This document shows, piece by piece, positions 2,933 to 31,490 of a stretch of 64,000 bases of DNA. Within the stretch, counting starts at the first letter, position 1, and each line of letters begins with the position of its first letter. The position numbers were made by a program, and so were the translations under genes. The DNA is from a virus, in the IMG/VR virus record IMGVR_UViG_3300008448_000038, positions 1 through 64,000 of that record; one strand, given 5' to 3'. A model generated the notes under the pieces. That model saw nothing but the letters and a program-made list of their open reading frames with translations, was not told the DNA's origin and did no database searches.

Positions 2933-5900
2933 GTTTTTTTCTTCCAACAACCTATAAGCCCTAAAGAACGTGCCCAATTCGCAAATTGATTTTGGTCCCA
3001 CCATAAAGAATTTTGCTGTTCTTCTGGAGTATCAAATACAAATATATCTTCATCACTTACATTACAATCTGTTGCACAGTCAAAGCTTGAGACAAAATCA
3101 CCGGGTGGAACAGAATTTAAACATTCTTTACAACAATCACTTTCAGGATCTAACTCTAAACCTGATAATAGGTCAACACAGTTAGCCCCAAACATACCAT
3201 CGTCTTGACAAGCAACAAAATTTCCAGAACCCGGTTCTTCATATGTACTAGGAGCGACATAACAACTTCCACTATAAAGATAATCGAGTGTACCATAGCA
3301 AGTTACTCCCGTCAATCCCTGCTGTTCTACTGGAGTGCTAGGAAGTTCTGTGCCATTCCAAAGCGAACCTTTTAAATGGCAAGGAGCTTCTATATCTCTA
3401 AATTTCGCAACACCACCACCGAAAATATTTAATCCGCCACATAAAGAATTTGCTATATAACGACAAATCGTATAATGGGGTGTTTGAGGATTATTGATAA
3501 CTGCGGATTTGTAAGAGCCTAAAGTATATCCACCACCACCACCCATAGCATCATAATTTGGAGGTGAACAATTTCCTAGCTCATTATCAGAATTATAGCA
3601 GTCATTATTAAATTCTGATTCTTCGTATCCACTACTTGTATTACGATCTACAATTATTCCTTCGCACCCACAAAAACTTCCTTTATAAAAATTGATCATA
3701 TCATCATTTACAAATCCAATAGATCTCAATTGTTCCTCTGTAATATTAAACATAATTTTTGAACAATCAAATTGATCATCGGAACCAAACATGATTTTTC
3801 CTTGGCTAGTTACTGGACTACAAATCCCCCATGTTCGTCCAGTAGCAGGGGATAGTGTATTAATAAAATTAAGTTCAAAATCAGTATCAAATTCTAATAT
3901 ACTACGAGGATTTTGATCTGAATTTATGAACCCTCCGTTTGGAGTAATTAAAATATTTCCAGTTGCTGGATCCCTGTCCCATCTCTTAAAATCATAATCG
4001 GCACTTCGACTATACCCATAACCCAGCACTATTCCAGACACACCGCCAAACAATCCTTGATTCCAAGGACCAAAAGCATTAGGATCATTATTTGTAATTG
4101 GTCCATTAGCAGCCCATGCGGAAATACCTTGTTCTGGATATTTTGGACATCTACACCATCTTGCAGCTTTATAAGCACAGTCCTCTGCAAAATTATTGCC
4201 AAGTTTACATTCTGGACAATTTTCCATAAGTTCACAACATTCTTGGGTAAACATACCAACGAAATCTGAGTATGGTAAATTATAAGGATATTGTGGATTT
4301 CCTCCAGTGGCTCCCGGTATTTCCCAGTATCTATTTGGCGGCAATCCAAATATCCATGTAATACCTTCGTTAGAAAGCGAATTAAGAGAATTGTTTACAG
4401 TTCTGTTGAAGCTATCACAAAAATCATATCCAAAACAATCTGGTAAATTTTGTATCGTTACGCCCGGTATTGTAAATACTTGATCAGTTGGAAGAAAACT
4501 ATATGGGTTTTGATCTCTAAATGCTATTGGGCCATACCAATTGAAATCATATGATATTGAGTCAATTTCATTGTCATAAACAATACTATTTGCCCCATCA
4601 CTTTCAATCACTAATCCATTACAACCACTAACTGCTGCTCCTCCTTCCGATGGCATTCTATGTCTGGGTACACCGGAACATTTTGCATTAAATGCTGAAA
4701 ATTTTTCTGGATATGGGGATGGACATGGAAAATCTTGTCCTTGCGCGCAACAAGCTTGCGAATAACATATAGTGCAATTTTCAAAAGTTTTTGTTAATCT
4801 GACACCAAGATTTTTGGTTTTATATTCTTCAATTTCTTCAGCATTTCTTGAAATAACTCTATGAGGAATAACACTTGCATCCCATGTCATGCCTCTACTT
4901 TGAAATCTAACAAAAGATAATTCAGACTTTCCATATGCTTGTATAATAAAAAATCTGTTATCGGGAACATTAGGACATGGAGCATCTTGGATAGGTGAAG
5001 TGCCCTCAACTGGATAAGTATGAGCTGCAAATAAAATATCTGGTGTTTCGGAATATGTTGTTCTTCCACAATATGGGTCAATAGCAATTCCTGTTGTTGG
5101 ATCATCAAATGGTGGGCGCAAAACACAATCTCCGAATAAACAATTTGTGGTTGGATTCCAAGCAAAATCTAAAAATCCTTCATTTGGATCATTTGCAATG
5201 CATTTATTTATTTGAGAATGAGCTAAAACTCTCGCAAAGGAAGGAAATGCTCCATTACCCGGATCTTGTACATATCCATATTTTCTAAAAAACCAATTGT
5301 CTTGTGGAGGACTTCCCGGTCCAGCCAACCCCGGACCCCATGCCGAAAAGTCCCATTTCCCGGGCAGCATGAGCATATATGTGTAAGTAATTTGTGATAA
5401 TTTTGCTATAAGACTTAATTTTCTTAAATTACGCTGTTCTGCGGTTTCATTGGGATAACTTCCCTTTAAATCTATTTCATCAATAGGAGCAAAGACATTA
5501 GCATATGTCATTGCTTGTATTTGTCTCAATTCTTCTACTGGATCTCCGTTTTCATTCTGGAATAGGAATTCATAAGTTCCACTTAAAACATCATAAGGCA
5601 TGAAGACATTTACGTCTGTTGGAACTGGACCAGAGCCGGGGGGCAACTCAGATTGTCCATATTGGTTATCTCCCCATCCAATAATTGATCCATCGGACAA
5701 TAAAGCTATACTAAAATGTTCTCCCGCTGATATGTCAATAACTTGGCCAATACTTGACGGAACATTACACTGACCAAAATCATTATTACCCCAACAATAT
5801 ACTACACCAGTGTTGTCTAACGCAATAGTATGATATCCACCAGATGAAATTTTAACTATATCAACATTAGGATTATTTAATATTTCTGTAGGAACAACAC

Positions 5901-12958: not shown

Positions 12959-13825
12959 ATGTCAAATTTCAGTGATTTCAAAAAGCGTTCTAAGTCAAGC
13001 ATCGAAGATCTAACCAAGAAGATTGAGGATCTAAACAAGGAAGCATCCTACAAGGATGATCGATTCTGGAAGCCAGAAGTCGATAAGGCTGGTAATGGCT
13101 ATGCCGTTATTCGCTTCCTCCCTGCTGCTCCCGGAGAAGACATTCCATGGGCTAAGGTTTACTCACATGCCTTCCAAGGCAAGGGTGGCTGGCTCATTGA
13201 GAATTGCCCAACCACGATTGGTCAGAAGTGCCCAATCTGCGAAGGCAACAGCGAACTCTGGAACAGCGGTATCGAAAAGGACAAGGATATCGCTCGTAAT
13301 CGTAAGCGCAAGCTTTCTTACATCTCAAACATCCTAGTTGTTAGCGACCCAGCCAACCCAGCCAACGATGGTAAGATGTTCCTCTATAAGTATGGCACCA
13401 AGATCTTTGGTAAGATTCAGGAGTCCATGCAGCCCCAGTTCAAGGATGAGGAAGCCATCAACCCATTCGACTTCTGGAAGGGTGCTAACTTCAAGTTGAA
13501 GATTCGTAAGGTTGCTGGATTCATCAATTACGATAAGTCTGAGTTTGATTCTCAGTCAGAACTCTATCGCGGTGACGATGAAAAGCTTGAATCGCTTTGG
13601 AAGAATCTAAACAAGCTTAATGAGTTTGTCAATCCGACTGAGTTCAAGACTTACGAAGACCTCAAGAAGAAGATGAATGATGTTCTTGGTGGGGACCTTC
13701 GTGACATCGGTGCTCAGTCAAAGACTATTGAGGATGAAGATACCCCATCAACTCCTAAGCGGTCTGGTCCTTCAGATTCAGAGGATGCGATGGCATACTT
13801 CGAACGTCTGTCTCGGGAAAATTAA
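12959..13825 (+). CDS. 32: Single-stranded DNA-binding protein gp32
   Basis: The 288-residue product coats single-stranded DNA during replication, recombination and repair. The N-terminal basic helix (FKKRSKSSIEDLTKKI) corresponds to the cooperativity domain. The central OB domain contains the T4-type zinc ligands, here His70, Cys83, Cys91 and Cys94 in the HAF...ENCP...KCPIC region. The C-terminal tail is acidic (IEDEDTPS...SDSEDAM), as needed for contacts with other replication proteins. Length (T4: 301) and placement after gp33 agree. Codon use is markedly richer in G and C than in the surrounding hypothetical genes, as expected for an abundant protein. The stop overlaps the stop of a convergent gene. 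Confidence 0.97.
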   Translation: MSNFSDFKKRSKSSIEDLTKKIEDLNKEASYKDDRFWKPEVDKAGNGYAVIRFLPAAPGEDIPWAKVYSHAFQGKGGWLIENCPTTIGQKCPICEGNSELWNSGIEKDKDIARNRKRKLSYISNILVVSDPANPANDGKMFLYKYGTKIFGKIQESMQPQFKDEEAINPFDFWKGANFKLKIRKVAGFINYDKSEFDSQSELYRGDDEKLESLWKNLNKLNEFVNPTEFKTYEDLKKKMNDVLGGDLRDIGAQSKTIEDEDTPSTPKRSGPSDSEDAMAYFERLSREN

Positions 13826-14589
13826 TAACTTAAAGTTCTCCAACTAACGTCAAGAACTTTCTGCATCTGCAATATCAACCCGGAGTCGCCAATACTATTG
13901 AGGCTCCGGGTTGATTGTTCATTGCGGTTTGGTTGAATTGGTCTTTGACCAAGAACGGCTGGAATTGAGGGTGCTGATGCAGCCTCTGATTTGTCTGAAA
14001 TAAATTGTTGTGGATCAAATTTTTCTTGATTGATCTTAATAGGATTTCCGGATTGAATTGTTTTCAATTCCTGAATTTTCTGCATAACGACTTCTTCAAG
14101 ATCTTCCTTTTGCTCGTAAATTGAAAGCTGTTCAGATCTAGTTTCAACCTTGATCTTGTCTTGCTCAGGCATATTTCTTTCAGCCTGACGCTCTTTCTTT
14201 TCTTGTACCGATAGTTCCTTCTCCTTAGTTTTTACTTTAGCTTCTTTGATCTTTGGAGGAGGTGGAGTTTTTTCTTCAATTTCTTTTGGTACAACTTCAG
14301 TTACCTTTTCATTTGATGCTTCTTCATTTTCATTTTTTTCACCAGTAACATCATTAGTAGTCTTTACTGGTTCGGCTTCAGTCTTGTAGCTAGATTTTTT
14401 ATTTGAGAGTTCAGTTTCTATCTCCTGAAGTCTTTTATCATAAGCCTCTTGAGTAATTTTTTTATTATCAAGATCTTCTAATAGTTGCTCCTTTTCCTTT
14501 TCCAATAGATTGGTGTCATCTTCTGGCTTTGAAGATGTCTCGGTGAGCATCATTTTAAAGAAGTTGGTTGGCTTAGGTTCTTCGTTCAT
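13822..14589 (-). CDS. Charged coiled-coil protein
   Basis: This 255-residue protein is dominated by Glu and Lys. A long helical region (LEKEKEQLLEDLDNKKITQEAY onward and KTKEKELSVQEKKERQAE) should form a coiled coil. A proline stretch (EKTPPPPKIKE) interrupts it, and the last 70 residues are more hydrophobic and may fold. The start ATG overlaps the TGA that ends the gp26 frameshift extension (ATGA at 14586-14589), so its translation is probably tied to ribosomes that have shifted frame. The 3' end meets gp32 tail to tail. I do not recognise the family; a tail-assembly or scaffold role is suggested by context alone. Confidence 0.7.
   Translation of the reverse strand: MNEEPKPTNFFKMMLTETSSKPEDDTNLLEKEKEQLLEDLDNKKITQEAYDKRLQEIETELSNKKSSYKTEAEPVKTTNDVTGEKNENEEASNEKVTEVVPKEIEEKTPPPPKIKEAKVKTKEKELSVQEKKERQAERNMPEQDKIKVETRSEQLSIYEQKEDLEEVVMQKIQELKTIQSGNPIKINQEKFDPQQFISDKSEAASAPSIPAVLGQRPIQPNRNEQSTRSLNSIGDSGLILQMQKVLDVSWRTLSY
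13874..13915. terminator. Strong GC-rich stem-loop after gp32 (possible terminator)
   Basis: ATCAACCCGGAG and CTCCGGGTTGAT form a perfect 12-bp stem around an 18-base loop in which CAAT and ATTG can pair again. It lies about 50 bases downstream of the gp32 stop, inside the end of the convergent gene. There is no clean U-tract on the plus side, so termination is plausible but not certain; an RNA-stabilising or processing element is the alternative. Confidence 0.45.
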
Positions 14590-14786
14590 GATAATTCGTT
14601 ATATCCTTTTGCTGATGCTGCTTTAAGTTTTTTCTCTGTCTGATATGCTTTGATCTGTGATATGAAAACGTCAAGTTCCCACGGAATCATTCTTTCAATC
14701 TCGGATAGCGGAAGATCATGCTTGTAGATAAGATTGAAAAATTTTACATACTTATCTACTAAATTTTCACTATCGAGAATTAAGAA
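14586..14786 (-). CDS. -1 frameshift extension of gp26 (gp51-like part)
   Basis: An open frame of 66 codons follows the gp26 slippery run in the -1 frame and has no start codon of its own until an internal Met about 33 residues in. The sequence (DSENLVDKYVKFFNLIYKH, then IERMIPWELDVFISQI) looks like a real helical protein: it has a conserved-looking P-W-E-x-D-V-F turn and a basic tail. A -1 shift at 14786-14792 would join it to gp26 as a protein of about 288 residues. It ends in an ATGA overlap with the 255-residue gene. The organisation matches the frameshifted tail-assembly chaperones of many tailed phages. In T4-like genomes the gene after gp26 is usually gp51, a hub-assembly factor; that equivalence is inferred. 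Confidence 0.7.
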   Translation of the reverse strand, partial: FLILDSENLVDKYVKFFNLIYKHDLPLSEIERMIPWELDVFISQIKAYQTEKKLKAASAKGYNELS

Positions 14787-15451
14787 AAAAAACGCAGATG
14801 TTCTCCAATAATTGCTGTTCTTGAAACTCCGTCAGAAGTTGTATAGCCAACTTCAAAATAAATTTCTGGATTGTTTTCTATAAAATCCTTTATTTTATTG
14901 TATTCATCGATTTTTAAATTCTTAAGAACTTCAACTCTTTCCTCAAGAGGAAGATTATCCATAATGAAATACTCATCTTGTTTTTCAAATGATTTAATAT
15001 GTAAAGCAACCTTTTCTTCGACTGTAAGCTCTGAAGAGATACAATCTTTGGCTTTAATACTTTCAAAGGTAACTACTTCTCCATTACCAATCATTAAAGT
15101 CTTGCCTTCAATGAGACTTATCTTATGATCTAAAACATTTAGACTAATCTTATGCTTTTCCTGAGTAGTTGGGCAAGTTATTTCCAGATCTAATTGTTCC
15201 CCCATTGACTTTGCTCTTAGAAATAAAAAGCATTGTTCCACTAAAGCGAGTTCAGCTTTAGGACTAAGTGGCATATCATAACAATCATTAATTAAATCCA
15301 TCACAGTTTTGATTACTAGATCATTTCTGGATTCTTCTTTTATGATCGCAAGATTTTTTTCATCTTTTACTAAGAACGGTCTAAAATATTGTTCTTTGCC
15401 ATTTAGTAATTTTGCTTTGTACTTTGGTAATCTTTTTTCAAAATATGACAT
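14780..15451 (-). CDS. 26: Baseplate hub protein gp26
   Basis: The 223-residue product begins MSYFEKRLPKYKAKLLNG and soon has FRPFLVKDEKNL, the 'YRPFLVKEEK' signature of gp26-type hub proteins, followed by the VIKTVMDLINDCY and LRAKSMGEQL segments also typical of the family. In T4, gp26 is a component needed for assembly of the baseplate hub. The length is close to T4 gp26 (208 residues). A GAGG Shine-Dalgarno precedes the ATG. The gene ends two bases after a T8 run that is a strong frameshift site, so two products are expected: the 223-residue form and a longer one with the downstream 66-residue extension. Confidence 0.8.
   Translation of the reverse strand: MSYFEKRLPKYKAKLLNGKEQYFRPFLVKDEKNLAIIKEESRNDLVIKTVMDLINDCYDMPLSPKAELALVEQCFLFLRAKSMGEQLDLEITCPTTQEKHKISLNVLDHKISLIEGKTLMIGNGEVVTFESIKAKDCISSELTVEEKVALHIKSFEKQDEYFIMDNLPLEERVEVLKNLKIDEYNKIKDFIENNPEIYFEVGYTTSDGVSRTAIIGEHLRFFS
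14786..14792 (-). promoter_or_regulatory. Slippery heptamer for -1 frameshifting
   Basis: In the gp26 reading frame the minus strand reads CGT TTT TTT TCT TAA, which contains the canonical heptamer T-TTT-TTT one codon before the stop. The whole T-run is eight bases (14785-14792). A -1 slip opens the downstream 66-codon frame. I saw no obvious stimulatory pseudoknot. Confidence 0.7.
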
Positions 15452-27025: not shown

Positions 27026-27442
27026 ATGTCTGATATAACAAATAAAGATCAACTCAATAATTTTCTAGAAATTACAACACCTAAAGCCTTGAAGCAAGAG
27101 TCTTCTATAATTAAGAAAAACGTAGAAGATGACTATGAATATGCCCGTGATAATATTAAAGAAATATTAGAAAAGGGCAAGATGGCTTTGGATGGCATTC
27201 TTCAGGTTGCTCAGGACGGAGACTCCCCCAGAGCCTACGAAGTCGCTACAAACATGCTCAAGGCTCTTTCCGAGATCAATAAGGATCTCATGGATGTCCA
27301 TGTCAAGGTAAAGGATAGCGAAAGAACAACCATCAAACAAACTAATAATGCCATTTTTGTGGGTTCTACTTTGGATCTTCAGGACATGATAAATAAAGAA
27401 AGAAGTTCAAAGAAAGCAATAATACAGGATAACAATGTTTGA
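27026..27442 (+). CDS. 16: Terminase small subunit gp16
   Basis: The 138-residue product has the gp16 central helical pair: 'DDYEYARDNIKEILEKGKMALDGILQVAQDGDSPRAYEVATNMLKALSEIN', a short coiled-coil motif that forms the ring of the small subunit. gp16 of T4 has 164 residues and regulates packaging by gp17. The flanking N- and C-termini are polar and short. In T4 the order is 14-15-16-17; here gp16 directly follows gp14 and the gp15 gene comes after it. The stop overlaps the start of the gp15 fusion gene by eight bases. Confidence 0.88.
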   Translation: MSDITNKDQLNNFLEITTPKALKQESSIIKKNVEDDYEYARDNIKEILEKGKMALDGILQVAQDGDSPRAYEVATNMLKALSEINKDLMDVHVKVKDSERTTIKQTNNAIFVGSTLDLQDMINKERSSKKAIIQDNNV

Positions 27443-30400
27443 TTCATTTTATAACGATTGCATTAAAAAGAACACGATAGCGTTTGCTTCGTTATTTAAC
27501 AATATTTACGTCAATAGAGAAGATGCATCAGATTCTAAAAAAATCAAAGTGCCACTTGTTTATGGAGGCAAAGAAAAGTATGTAAGCCGTCTTCAGAATC
27601 CTTCTAGTATTTCTGAAAAAGATAAGCTTCAAATAACTCTACCCATGATGAGTTTTGATATGTCTAATCTGCAATATGATACGCAGAGACATAGAAATAA
27701 ACTTGAATTTAATAAATTATTTTATCAGGAAGATGGAGAGACAAAGGCTAAGGTAAAAATTGGTGAATATCCCTGCCTTATGCAATTTAATCTTGCGATT
27801 TATACTCGTAACATTGAAGAAAACTTTCAAATCATTGAGCAGATTGCGCCATACTTTACTCCAGAATACATTCTTACTCTAGATTTTGATAAGACTTTGA
27901 CTAGAGGTATTGATGTTCCGATTAATCTAGTTGCATCAAAGATCGGAAATGACTACGAAGGTGGATTCGGTAATCGTAGAGCCGTAGTTAGTACTCTACA
28001 ATTTGTTATGCGTACCTATTTGTTCGGCCCTGAGCGAGAAGCGACTCCTATTCTCACAACGGATTTTAATCTCAACACTCAGGATAGCTTTTTGCAATTC
28101 ATCACAGATGTTCAAGTCAACGATGATTTGTATCTCAATAACCAATCAATAACTGTAACTTGGAGACAGGGTGGAATATTCCCAAGAAATCCAACTATAG
28201 TTATTACAAATCTTTCCAATTATACTGAAGAAATTATTTATGATCCAGAATCCTTTGATGTAGGTGATGGAACAAATAGTGTTACATTTGCAATTCCAGC
28301 TTCAGCTCCATTGCTACAGCAACTTTATGTTAGAATATTTTTTGGAACAGTGTCAGACAATTCAACAGCGTTTGAAGTAAGATCAGCTGCTGGAAATATT
28401 TCTTTACTAAGATTGGCTAATTTTGCCGGAACATCATTTAATGATTTGATGTCTTCTAATCATTACTATTTTACTCAGAGTGGTGTAACACAATTTAATC
28501 GGGGTGATAATCTTGTCTTGGCTTATAATTATGGCTCATATGGTGATCTTAACATTAAAACACCCGGATTACTTGAATATTATCGTGCATTTGGTTTAAC
28601 ATTCAGAGCAAATACAATTGACAATCCACAAATTCCATTTGGTAGTGTCATACACAATGGTATGTGGGCTGGCATAAGTTATGACCAGAATAGAGTTTTA
28701 CCCTGTTTACCAATTTATATGCGCCCCGGAGGAAATGTAAATTTATATGCAAATCAAGGTGATGGTGTTTTCGGCACAACACAAGGCACATTGGCGAATA
28801 GAAGAACTAGTGAAGATATGTTCCAAGCAACATATGGTTCGCAGGCTTATTACATCAATGGATTTTGGGGATGGAATGGTACAACAAGTATTATAAGTAT
28901 TGGATCATATCCATCAGCGGGTATTACAATCGAAGCAGGATATAGCGGATATATTGTAGATAAAAATAATCAAAATAGATATCCAGATACAGGTAAATAT
29001 TCAACAGGCGTTACCCACTCTCAAGCTCAACCATCAATAAGAACGCTTTTTGATCCAACATTTACTCAGAAATTATATCCATCTAGAGGAGCTACTGGAT
29101 TAAGATCATGGGTTATTACTGCGTTTGGTAGTAACAACCCAGCCGCAATGTTATTTGATTCTGGTATTTTTGCTGGATCAACACTACCAAACTACCCACC
29201 GTATAGTGGTATTGATTATCTTGATTCGTTTGATAAGATGCGTTTGCCAATTTATATGGATTGTTATAATTTAGTCCATAATGGTAATACATTTTTAGTA
29301 CCTTCTCCGTTTACTCCAAATCTTGTTACTGATATGTTAGGTTTTACTGCTTATGCCGCAACGGGATTTACTGGAAGAGAAAATTATGCTGGTAAATTCG
29401 GAACTACTTATGTTGGTGGATGGAATAAATTATTCGATTTTGTTTATGCTGGAAAAAACATTAATGGAGTTACTTTTGTTCCACCTACTCCATGTGTAGA
29501 TATTATTTTTAATGATCATGAATTGCGGTGGGGATTGGGTTTAGGAACAGATTCTTTATTATTGTGGAAATTAATGTTGTTAGTTGATGGATTAACAACT
29601 GCATGGATTAATAAAGTAAAACAAGATCAATTCTGGCCGCAGCTTGAAGCAAAATATGCAGAATATCCGGGATTATCTTTTGATCGTATTTTTGATGGAA
29701 TGAAAAATGCATTTCTTTATGCTACCAGTGGTCCACTAAGTAAAAAAGGAATTCATGGAGGAATTCAATTTCCAATAGACGCATTACCATTACAAGAATT
29801 TTATGATAATGAATTTAAGAAATATTGGGGTGGTTTGCAAGAAACAACCGAACGCAGAAGTCCCGGATGTAAGTTTGCTCCTGTGCATGTTAATAGACTT
29901 CCAAGAGTAAAATCTACTGGTAGATTCCATGATGTTACTGCTCAAAGCTTTTCACAAGGAGTGACTTTACCATATGAATTGATATATCACTATCCTTACG
30001 GTTCTCCATATACTTATACTGATTTTCAAGCTAGGTATAGAAGAACTGGATATGCACCTACACCAGTAAACGCTATTACTTTTGCATTTGTGGAAAACGC
30101 AATTATACCTCAAAATAATCCTACTCTTGCACAGGTAAATAATGCGTCTAACAAATTAGTTCCTTGGTTTACATCAGAAAATCTCGGTCAGACGGGAACT
30201 ACTTTTATCTGTGGTATTTCATACAATCCACAATATTTCGAAACAAGCAATTCAGTTCCTACAATTGGGGATGGAACATTAGTAACATTCTTTGGCGAGT
30301 ATTATGATCCTACTCAAAGACCATTTGCGGGTACAAGACTATCCGAAAAATATGAGCCATTCCTCGCTATGAAGGATGAATCTAGAATTATTCGTGGAAT

Positions 30401-31490
30401 TATAGAAGAAAATATGAACCATGGAGTTTCTGGAATTTTTATTTATAACAATATCCAATTCAACAGAGTTTCATATCACATTCCTCACGGTTATGAGAAT
30501 AGTTGGTTTATGGATTTTATTCCATCTTCTGCTAATAATAATGCTGAAGGATTTACTTATACAGATCCAGCAATATTTTCAAAAACAAATTTTACAGCTA
30601 ATCCAAGAACAAATCCAAATTATCAACCAATTAATTTTTATCACTCATATAATGAAAATATCTTTATATCGAAATTATTGACCAATTTACCCCTTAACAT
30701 CCTCAATCAATCAGTTATTTTCCAAGGACCTATAACAAATGAAAATGATGGAAGTGCTGGTTACTATGGAATTCATCCTAAAACATGGAATAATTTCAAG
30801 TATAATGATGAAATACTTTTGAATCATATTTTGTGGGACATGGAAGTAGCAACTCATGGAAGAACATATGAATATCTTTCAAGTTCAGACGATATAAACA
30901 TTGCAGAGAGTTTACGGGTTGAAGTCGGAGGATTTAATATATCTAAATTGAATCCAGCACTATTAAGCAAAGTAAGATTGTTAGCTACAAACGCATCAGA
31001 CCAAAATCTTATATTGCATAGAATAACCCTACCAATCCCATATATTTTAACTTCTGATTATGGAAGACCAGATCAAGACACTTATTATGATAATTGGTAT
31101 AATAATCATTTTGCCGAGAATGTTTTGGCAACAAGCGTTGATCCTCAAACAGGTAATACCCTTGATAATATCAACCTTATAACCACGGGAAATAGAGATT
31201 TGGATTTTTATACTAAATCAGTAGTAACTGAAAGTAATGGAACCCACTCATGGAGAACTTTAAGAACAAATCCAAATATTAGAAGATTTAGTGTAAATGT
31301 TTTTGCTGGCAATACACTGGTAGGCAATTTAATTCCAAGTAAATATTACCCCATGGGAGTTTGGCTAATAACAGATGAAGTTTCTATTCTCGCTGATGGA
31401 ACCACATTCAACAATTACAATTTACGTTTTGAATATCAAGATGCTGGTCCAATGGCAGATGGAATTACTACTGCACCTTATAGAACATGA
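27435..31490 (+). CDS. 15: Tail terminator gp15 with a giant C-terminal extension
   Basis: The 1351-residue product starts with a clear gp15 domain (residues 1 to about 205): 'SLFNNIYVNR', 'KIKVPLVYGGKEKYVSRLQ', 'ITLPMMSFDMSNLQYD', 'PCLMQFNLAIYTRN' and 'TLQFVMRTYLFGPE' all match the tail-sheath stabiliser of T4-like phages. T4 gp15 is 272 residues, so about 1150 residues are extra. The extension is rich in Asn, Tyr, Gly, Thr and Phe, strand-rich, without Cys-rich or enzymatic motifs, and more AT-rich than the gp15 part. It probably projects from the neck as a fibre or collar-like arm. It sits between gp16 and gp17 and overlaps both. Confidence 0.85.
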   Translation: MFDSFYNDCIKKNTIAFASLFNNIYVNREDASDSKKIKVPLVYGGKEKYVSRLQNPSSISEKDKLQITLPMMSFDMSNLQYDTQRHRNKLEFNKLFYQEDGETKAKVKIGEYPCLMQFNLAIYTRNIEENFQIIEQIAPYFTPEYILTLDFDKTLTRGIDVPINLVASKIGNDYEGGFGNRRAVVSTLQFVMRTYLFGPEREATPILTTDFNLNTQDSFLQFITDVQVNDDLYLNNQSITVTWRQGGIFPRNPTIVITNLSNYTEEIIYDPESFDVGDGTNSVTFAIPASAPLLQQLYVRIFFGTVSDNSTAFEVRSAAGNISLLRLANFAGTSFNDLMSSNHYYFTQSGVTQFNRGDNLVLAYNYGSYGDLNIKTPGLLEYYRAFGLTFRANTIDNPQIPFGSVIHNGMWAGISYDQNRVLPCLPIYMRPGGNVNLYANQGDGVFGTTQGTLANRRTSEDMFQATYGSQAYYINGFWGWNGTTSIISIGSYPSAGITIEAGYSGYIVDKNNQNRYPDTGKYSTGVTHSQAQPSIRTLFDPTFTQKLYPSRGATGLRSWVITAFGSNNPAAMLFDSGIFAGSTLPNYPPYSGIDYLDSFDKMRLPIYMDCYNLVHNGNTFLVPSPFTPNLVTDMLGFTAYAATGFTGRENYAGKFGTTYVGGWNKLFDFVYAGKNINGVTFVPPTPCVDIIFNDHELRWGLGLGTDSLLLWKLMLLVDGLTTAWINKVKQDQFWPQLEAKYAEYPGLSFDRIFDGMKNAFLYATSGPLSKKGIHGGIQFPIDALPLQEFYDNEFKKYWGGLQETTERRSPGCKFAPVHVNRLPRVKSTGRFHDVTAQSFSQGVTLPYELIYHYPYGSPYTYTDFQARYRRTGYAPTPVNAITFAFVENAIIPQNNPTLAQVNNASNKLVPWFTSENLGQTGTTFICGISYNPQYFETSNSVPTIGDGTLVTFFGEYYDPTQRPFAGTRLSEKYEPFLAMKDESRIIRGIIEENMNHGVSGIFIYNNIQFNRVSYHIPHGYENSWFMDFIPSSANNNAEGFTYTDPAIFSKTNFTANPRTNPNYQPINFYHSYNENIFISKLLTNLPLNILNQSVIFQGPITNENDGSAGYYGIHPKTWNNFKYNDEILLNHILWDMEVATHGRTYEYLSSSDDINIAESLRVEVGGFNISKLNPALLSKVRLLATNASDQNLILHRITLPIPYILTSDYGRPDQDTYYDNWYNNHFAENVLATSVDPQTGNTLDNINLITTGNRDLDFYTKSVVTESNGTHSWRTLRTNPNIRRFSVNVFAGNTLVGNLIPSKYYPMGVWLITDEVSILADGTTFNNYNLRFEYQDAGPMADGITTAPYRT

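Follow-up and report, generated by a model that had tools for sequence, protein, structure and literature searches.

In lambda, the tail-assembly chaperone is made as gpG, a short form that stops at a slippery heptamer, and as gpG-T, a rarer long form to which a −1 extension adds a C-terminal domain; other long-tailed phages have analogues. In T4-like phages, the tail-assembly chaperones (TACs) have been assigned to gp26 and gp51 (Vladimirov, Gautam & Davidson 2022, Virology 566:9, as cited in PMC10885494 and PMC12846349), and poly-T slippery sequences have been described in the genes for the short form, TAC-N (the same work, as cited in PMC12846349). For Pseudomonas phage Adele and for Vandenendeviridae/Andersonviridae, a −1 frameshift has been reported at the end of TAC-N, at an invariant GTTTTT; the C-terminal part of this locus, just over 200 bp long, is often left unannotated (PMC12846349).

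Gene 26 and its open −1 frame

The window (the whole stretch of 64,000 nucleotides that was analysed, part of an 81-kb virus record) carries a gp26 gene on the minus strand (14780-15451), whose 223-residue 0-frame product belongs to the gp26 family by profile searches (PF12322, E 2.6e-25; phrog_150, E 1e-29). The surroundings are T4-like: genes for a gp32-like ssDNA-binding protein, the tail tube, head closure (gp4), the tail tube cap, a baseplate wedge, the terminase, sheath, portal and major head protein lie around gp26. The tail sheath stabilizer (27435-31490, plus strand) is matched by phrog_227 over residues 2-225 and carries some 1100 further residues at its C-terminus without a family match. 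An AlphaFold model of gp26 (pLDDT 87.6) found zero matches at E <= 0.001 among the solved structures of the PDB, and the gp26 sequence has no significant match there; fold and sequence searches of the PDB thus gave no tie to lambda-type chaperones. Those BFVD matches of the model that carry names are mostly gp26-type baseplate hub proteins.

Read directly on the minus strand, the gene ends in CGT TTT TTT TCT TAA, as an earlier note on this DNA had stated: the heptamer T TTT TTT (14786-14792) has the form X XXY YYZ in the 0-frame register, covers gp26 codons 221-222 and lies within a T8 run (14785-14792); the stop TAA (14780-14782) is one codon past it. The window holds 120 in-frame slippery heptamers of A and T, spread over 51 ORFs; the one in gp26, 13 nt short of the ORF's end, is followed by a −1 extension far longer than any other (66 codons; runner-up 29). 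This −1 frame is open from 14786 to 14589 and stops at a TGA (14586-14588), which shares two letters with the start codon of the following gene (ATG, 14587-14589) in an ATGA overlap. In a dinucleotide Markov model, 66 codons stay open by chance in 0.43% of trials.

The extension (14586-14786 including its stop) encodes a gp51-like domain, TAC-C: it matches phrog_634, the 'baseplate hub assembly catalyst' gp51, with an E-value of 8.8e-11 (a Pfam search of the −1 frame gave no match), and it contains the P.E motif, mostly MPWE, that is common to the family in an alignment including the C-terminus of T4 gp51. Between subclades, its dN/dS is 0.03-0.06 at a dS of about 0.8-1.4; the −1 frame is under strong purifying selection, and the remaining two frames of the same stretch are interrupted by 5-10 stops. 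The predicted frameshift fusion has 288 residues, with the junction peptide ...LRFFFLILDSENL....

The absence of an own start codon, also claimed in the earlier note together with the 66 open codons and the ATGA end, was confirmed by direct reading and a start-codon scan: no ATG, GTG or TTG occurs in the −1 frame anywhere between its preceding stop, 52 nt ahead of that of gp26, and the end of its codon 22, as read in the relative L005, which stands in for the window and is identical to it over 866/866 nt. This result bears on the alternative that the C-terminal domain is a separate gene, expressed by reinitiation at a start codon of its own, as might be read from several cyanophages in which short gp51 genes are annotated, some with an ATG just past the gp26 stop. 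However, ATG, GTG and TTG are all absent near the head of the domain in the window clade, as in many other loci, the annotated starts vary among phages and in some (Syn33, for example) cut into the conserved domain, and in T4 the domain is fused to a gp26-like N-terminal part. Since the clade offers no usable start and no start is conserved elsewhere, independent translation of the domain is highly improbable. The annotated genes in question, of about 60 residues and called 'gp51' or hypothetical, are found with differing starts in the cyanophage records L002, L003, L004, L091, L092 and L100; they most probably represent the tail that frameshifting adds to gp26, and not genes of their own.

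Conservation of the slippery site

Conservation in relatives, of the T-run as of the −1 frame, had been proposed as a check, and both are conserved. Every close relative read, from three subclades with gp26 proteins 87-100% identical, has the identical T8 run and keeps the −1 frame. Beyond these, a survey of 89 T4-like loci from IMG/VR contigs and annotated phages, not all of them independent, covers Kyanoviridae, Caulobacter phage Cr30, Cronobacter phage S13, Vibrio phage phi-ST2, Stenotrophomonas phage Ps15 and Pseudomonas phage Astolliot, among others; 88 of the 89 have a heptamer at the same place followed by an open −1 frame. The heptamer is T TTT TTC in 81 of these and T TTT TTT in the other seven; it starts 10 nt before the gp26 stop, or 7 nt before it in four cases, and the −1 frame measures 54-73 residues wherever the contig continues far enough. 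The sole exception (L097, around position 3822) is from Ackermannviridae (Salmonella phage Chennai): its gp26 lacks a canonical heptamer before the stop, yet the −1 frame is open and encodes the gp51 domain. A search for more distant members to use in the covariation analysis, scanning for gp26 and the −1 frame, returned only the three known subclades plus one far relative, L101.

Homopolymer runs are error-prone, and the earlier note had itself raised the possibility of a sequencing error, by which a true run of nine Ts would have been read as eight. Because the same T8 occurs in other assemblies of the three subclades, and distantly related phage isolates share this layout, such an error is very unlikely; with both frames under purifying selection as well, an artefact of assembly or sequencing, or a decaying pseudogene, has next to no probability.

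The length of the run also invites a different mechanism, in which the RNA polymerase slips in T8 and adds a U, so that U9 transcripts join the two frames at the level of the mRNA: T8 is long and invariant in the clade, and nine Ts would make one frame. However, 81 of the 88 loci have T TTT TTC, a run of only six Ts that keeps the same heptamer register; six Ts are too short for efficient polymerase slippage. An RNA structure at a spacing of 7 nt (see below) is, moreover, typical of ribosomal and not of transcriptional slippage. Transcriptional slippage as the explanation of the locus is thus improbable, although it could contribute additionally on the T8 of the window clade; the conserved mechanism should be ribosomal, given the T6C form in most relatives.

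For ribosomes, by contrast, T TTT TTC is the form expected under tRNA slippage, and we consider it very probable that two chaperones, TAC-N and TAC-NC, arise here through programmed −1 slippage of ribosomes at T TTT TTT; the comparisons above provide strong evidence, at the level of sequence, for ribosomes slipping at T8 in this T4-like phage. The majority of ribosomes would read gp26 to its TAA and produce the 223-residue TAC-N. A fraction would slip back by one base with Phe-tRNA in both the P and the A site, where UUU UUU can re-pair perfectly, bypass the stop and produce the rarer, 288-residue TAC-NC with the gp51-like C-terminal domain; both forms would then come together around the tape measure protein while the tail is being built. 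What is seen directly is the architecture of the locus, its conservation, the selection on the −1 frame, the family membership of both halves and a fold stronger than in synonymous controls; from these we infer the occurrence of frameshifting, its rate and the effect of the stimulators, whereas the chaperone function is suggested by T4-like and lambda-like precedent.

Sequence and structure around the heptamer

Upstream of the slippery site and into it, the codons GGA GAA CAT CTG CGT TTT TTT have all seven third positions invariant in the clade; 150 of the 223 third positions of gp26 vary, and the longest invariant run elsewhere is 3. Seven frozen third positions in a row thus indicate a constraint at the nucleotide level, acting on the T-run and possibly on the Shine-Dalgarno-like GGAGAA (14801-14806), whose GGAG lies 10 nt from the heptamer and which perhaps helps slippage. 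As a stimulator shared by the whole family, a Shine-Dalgarno-like element was rejected, since it shows no enrichment there: over 45 distinct sites, a mean fraction of 0.39 of the synonymous controls pair as well or better.

Downstream, the mRNA is predicted to form two nested helices. The outer stem has 11 pairs between its 5' arm (14768-14778), which starts 7 nt past the heptamer, and its 3' arm (14699-14710), which contains one bulged base; it encloses an inner stem of 9 pairs between 14751-14759 (5' arm) and 14724-14732 (3' arm). The 7-nt spacing is inside the 5-9 nt expected of −1 frameshift sites, and this two-helix structure probably helps slippage. Its folding energy has a z of −3.0 against dinucleotide shuffles; when the three subclades are compared with controls recoded by synonymous codons, z lies between −2.8 and −4.2. 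All pairs (20/20) are kept in five distinct sequences, in which the stems show one compensatory change (G-C to A-U, in the outer stem of the L011 subclade) and two one-sided ones; with five sequences, covariation does not differ significantly from shuffling (96/500). Third positions vary less in the stems than outside (2/13 vs 30/53, p 0.012; p 0.14 within the stem region alone).

This 20-bp RNA structure is specific to the window clade. As a family-wide feature, a downstream hairpin gave a mixed result, with z from −4.0 to +1.6 and a mean of −0.77 over 64 distinct sequences: Cr30, P-SSM2 and phi-ST2 also fold strongly here, each into another structure, and many marine cyanophages have no simple stem at this place. 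The site is a compact, testable frameshift cassette, in which the downstream structure occupies the same spot but differs by lineage.

Comparison with T4 and other tail-assembly chaperones

T4 keeps genes 26 and 51 apart, one on each strand. The end of its gene 26, GAG TTC TTT GAG TTA CTA TAA, contains no heptamer, and the −1 frame there is closed. In profile searches, phrog_150 covers the length of T4 gp51 and phrog_634 its C-terminal end; gp51 is therefore the long form encoded as a single gene, and T4 gp26 is the short form. This agrees with the statement in PMC10885494 that cites Vladimirov et al. As T4 gp51 is itself a gp26-like protein with this same C-terminal domain, the fusion predicted in the window is the equivalent of gp51 and not of gp26 plus gp51. 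The earlier note had described the locus as a frameshifted TAC giving a gp26-gp51-like fusion: the architecture stands, with the site present in 88/89 loci and phrog_634 in the extension, and the composition of the fusion is to be corrected in this sense. T4 has two separate genes in place of a frameshift, and the window clade one gene with a heptamer; among the phages surveyed, it is the two-gene layout of T4 that is the exception.

The gene that follows the −1 frame (13822-14589, minus strand), in the place where a tape measure would be expected, encodes a Lys/Glu-rich protein of 255 residues (255-287 in relatives) with no family match; its C-terminus, TRSLNSIGDSGLI, is conserved, and in the L011 version a block of 29 residues occurs twice. 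In six relatives, gp51 is followed directly, or nearly so, by a protein of 529-1064 residues, and in Cr30 it is annotated as the tape measure. Neither the 81-kb record (G000) nor a 113-kb relative, both possibly incomplete, yielded a recognisable tape measure protein. Two helix-rich proteins of the 113-kb relative, of 918 residues (L119:15694-18447, minus strand) and 633 residues (L120:7971-9869, minus strand), are candidate tape measures without a family match. A tentative and rather doubtful extension of these observations is that the chaperone and tape measure genes have become separated in the window clade, which would have rebuilt its own signal (a slippage-prone T8, a frozen GGAGAA 10 nt upstream and a two-helix structure over ~80 nt of coding sequence), possibly setting the ratio of the two chaperones for a tape measure encoded elsewhere.

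Against lambda gpG and gpG-T, the likeness lies in a short form that ends at a heptamer and a −1 extension that adds a C-terminal domain; the heptamer differs, and no recognisable tape measure gene adjoins the window gp26. The Adele-type TAC resembles the window in the architecture of its site and is reported from other phage families. The T4-like gp26/gp51 pairs have the families (PF12322/phrog_150 and phrog_634) and the poly-T site before the gp26 stop in common with the window; a frameshifted TAC is already known in kind, its assignment in T4-like phages, as conveyed by the citing papers, dating from 2022. The locus accordingly offers no new principle; its new details are the clade-specific 20-bp structure, the frozen GGAGAA and a gp26 gene without a recognisable adjoining tape measure gene, and its value lies in the annotation of cyanophage gp51 and in a testable, lineage-specific stimulator. 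Where the T4-like relatives mostly have T TTT TTC, the window clade has T TTT TTT within T8, followed by a downstream RNA structure of its own.
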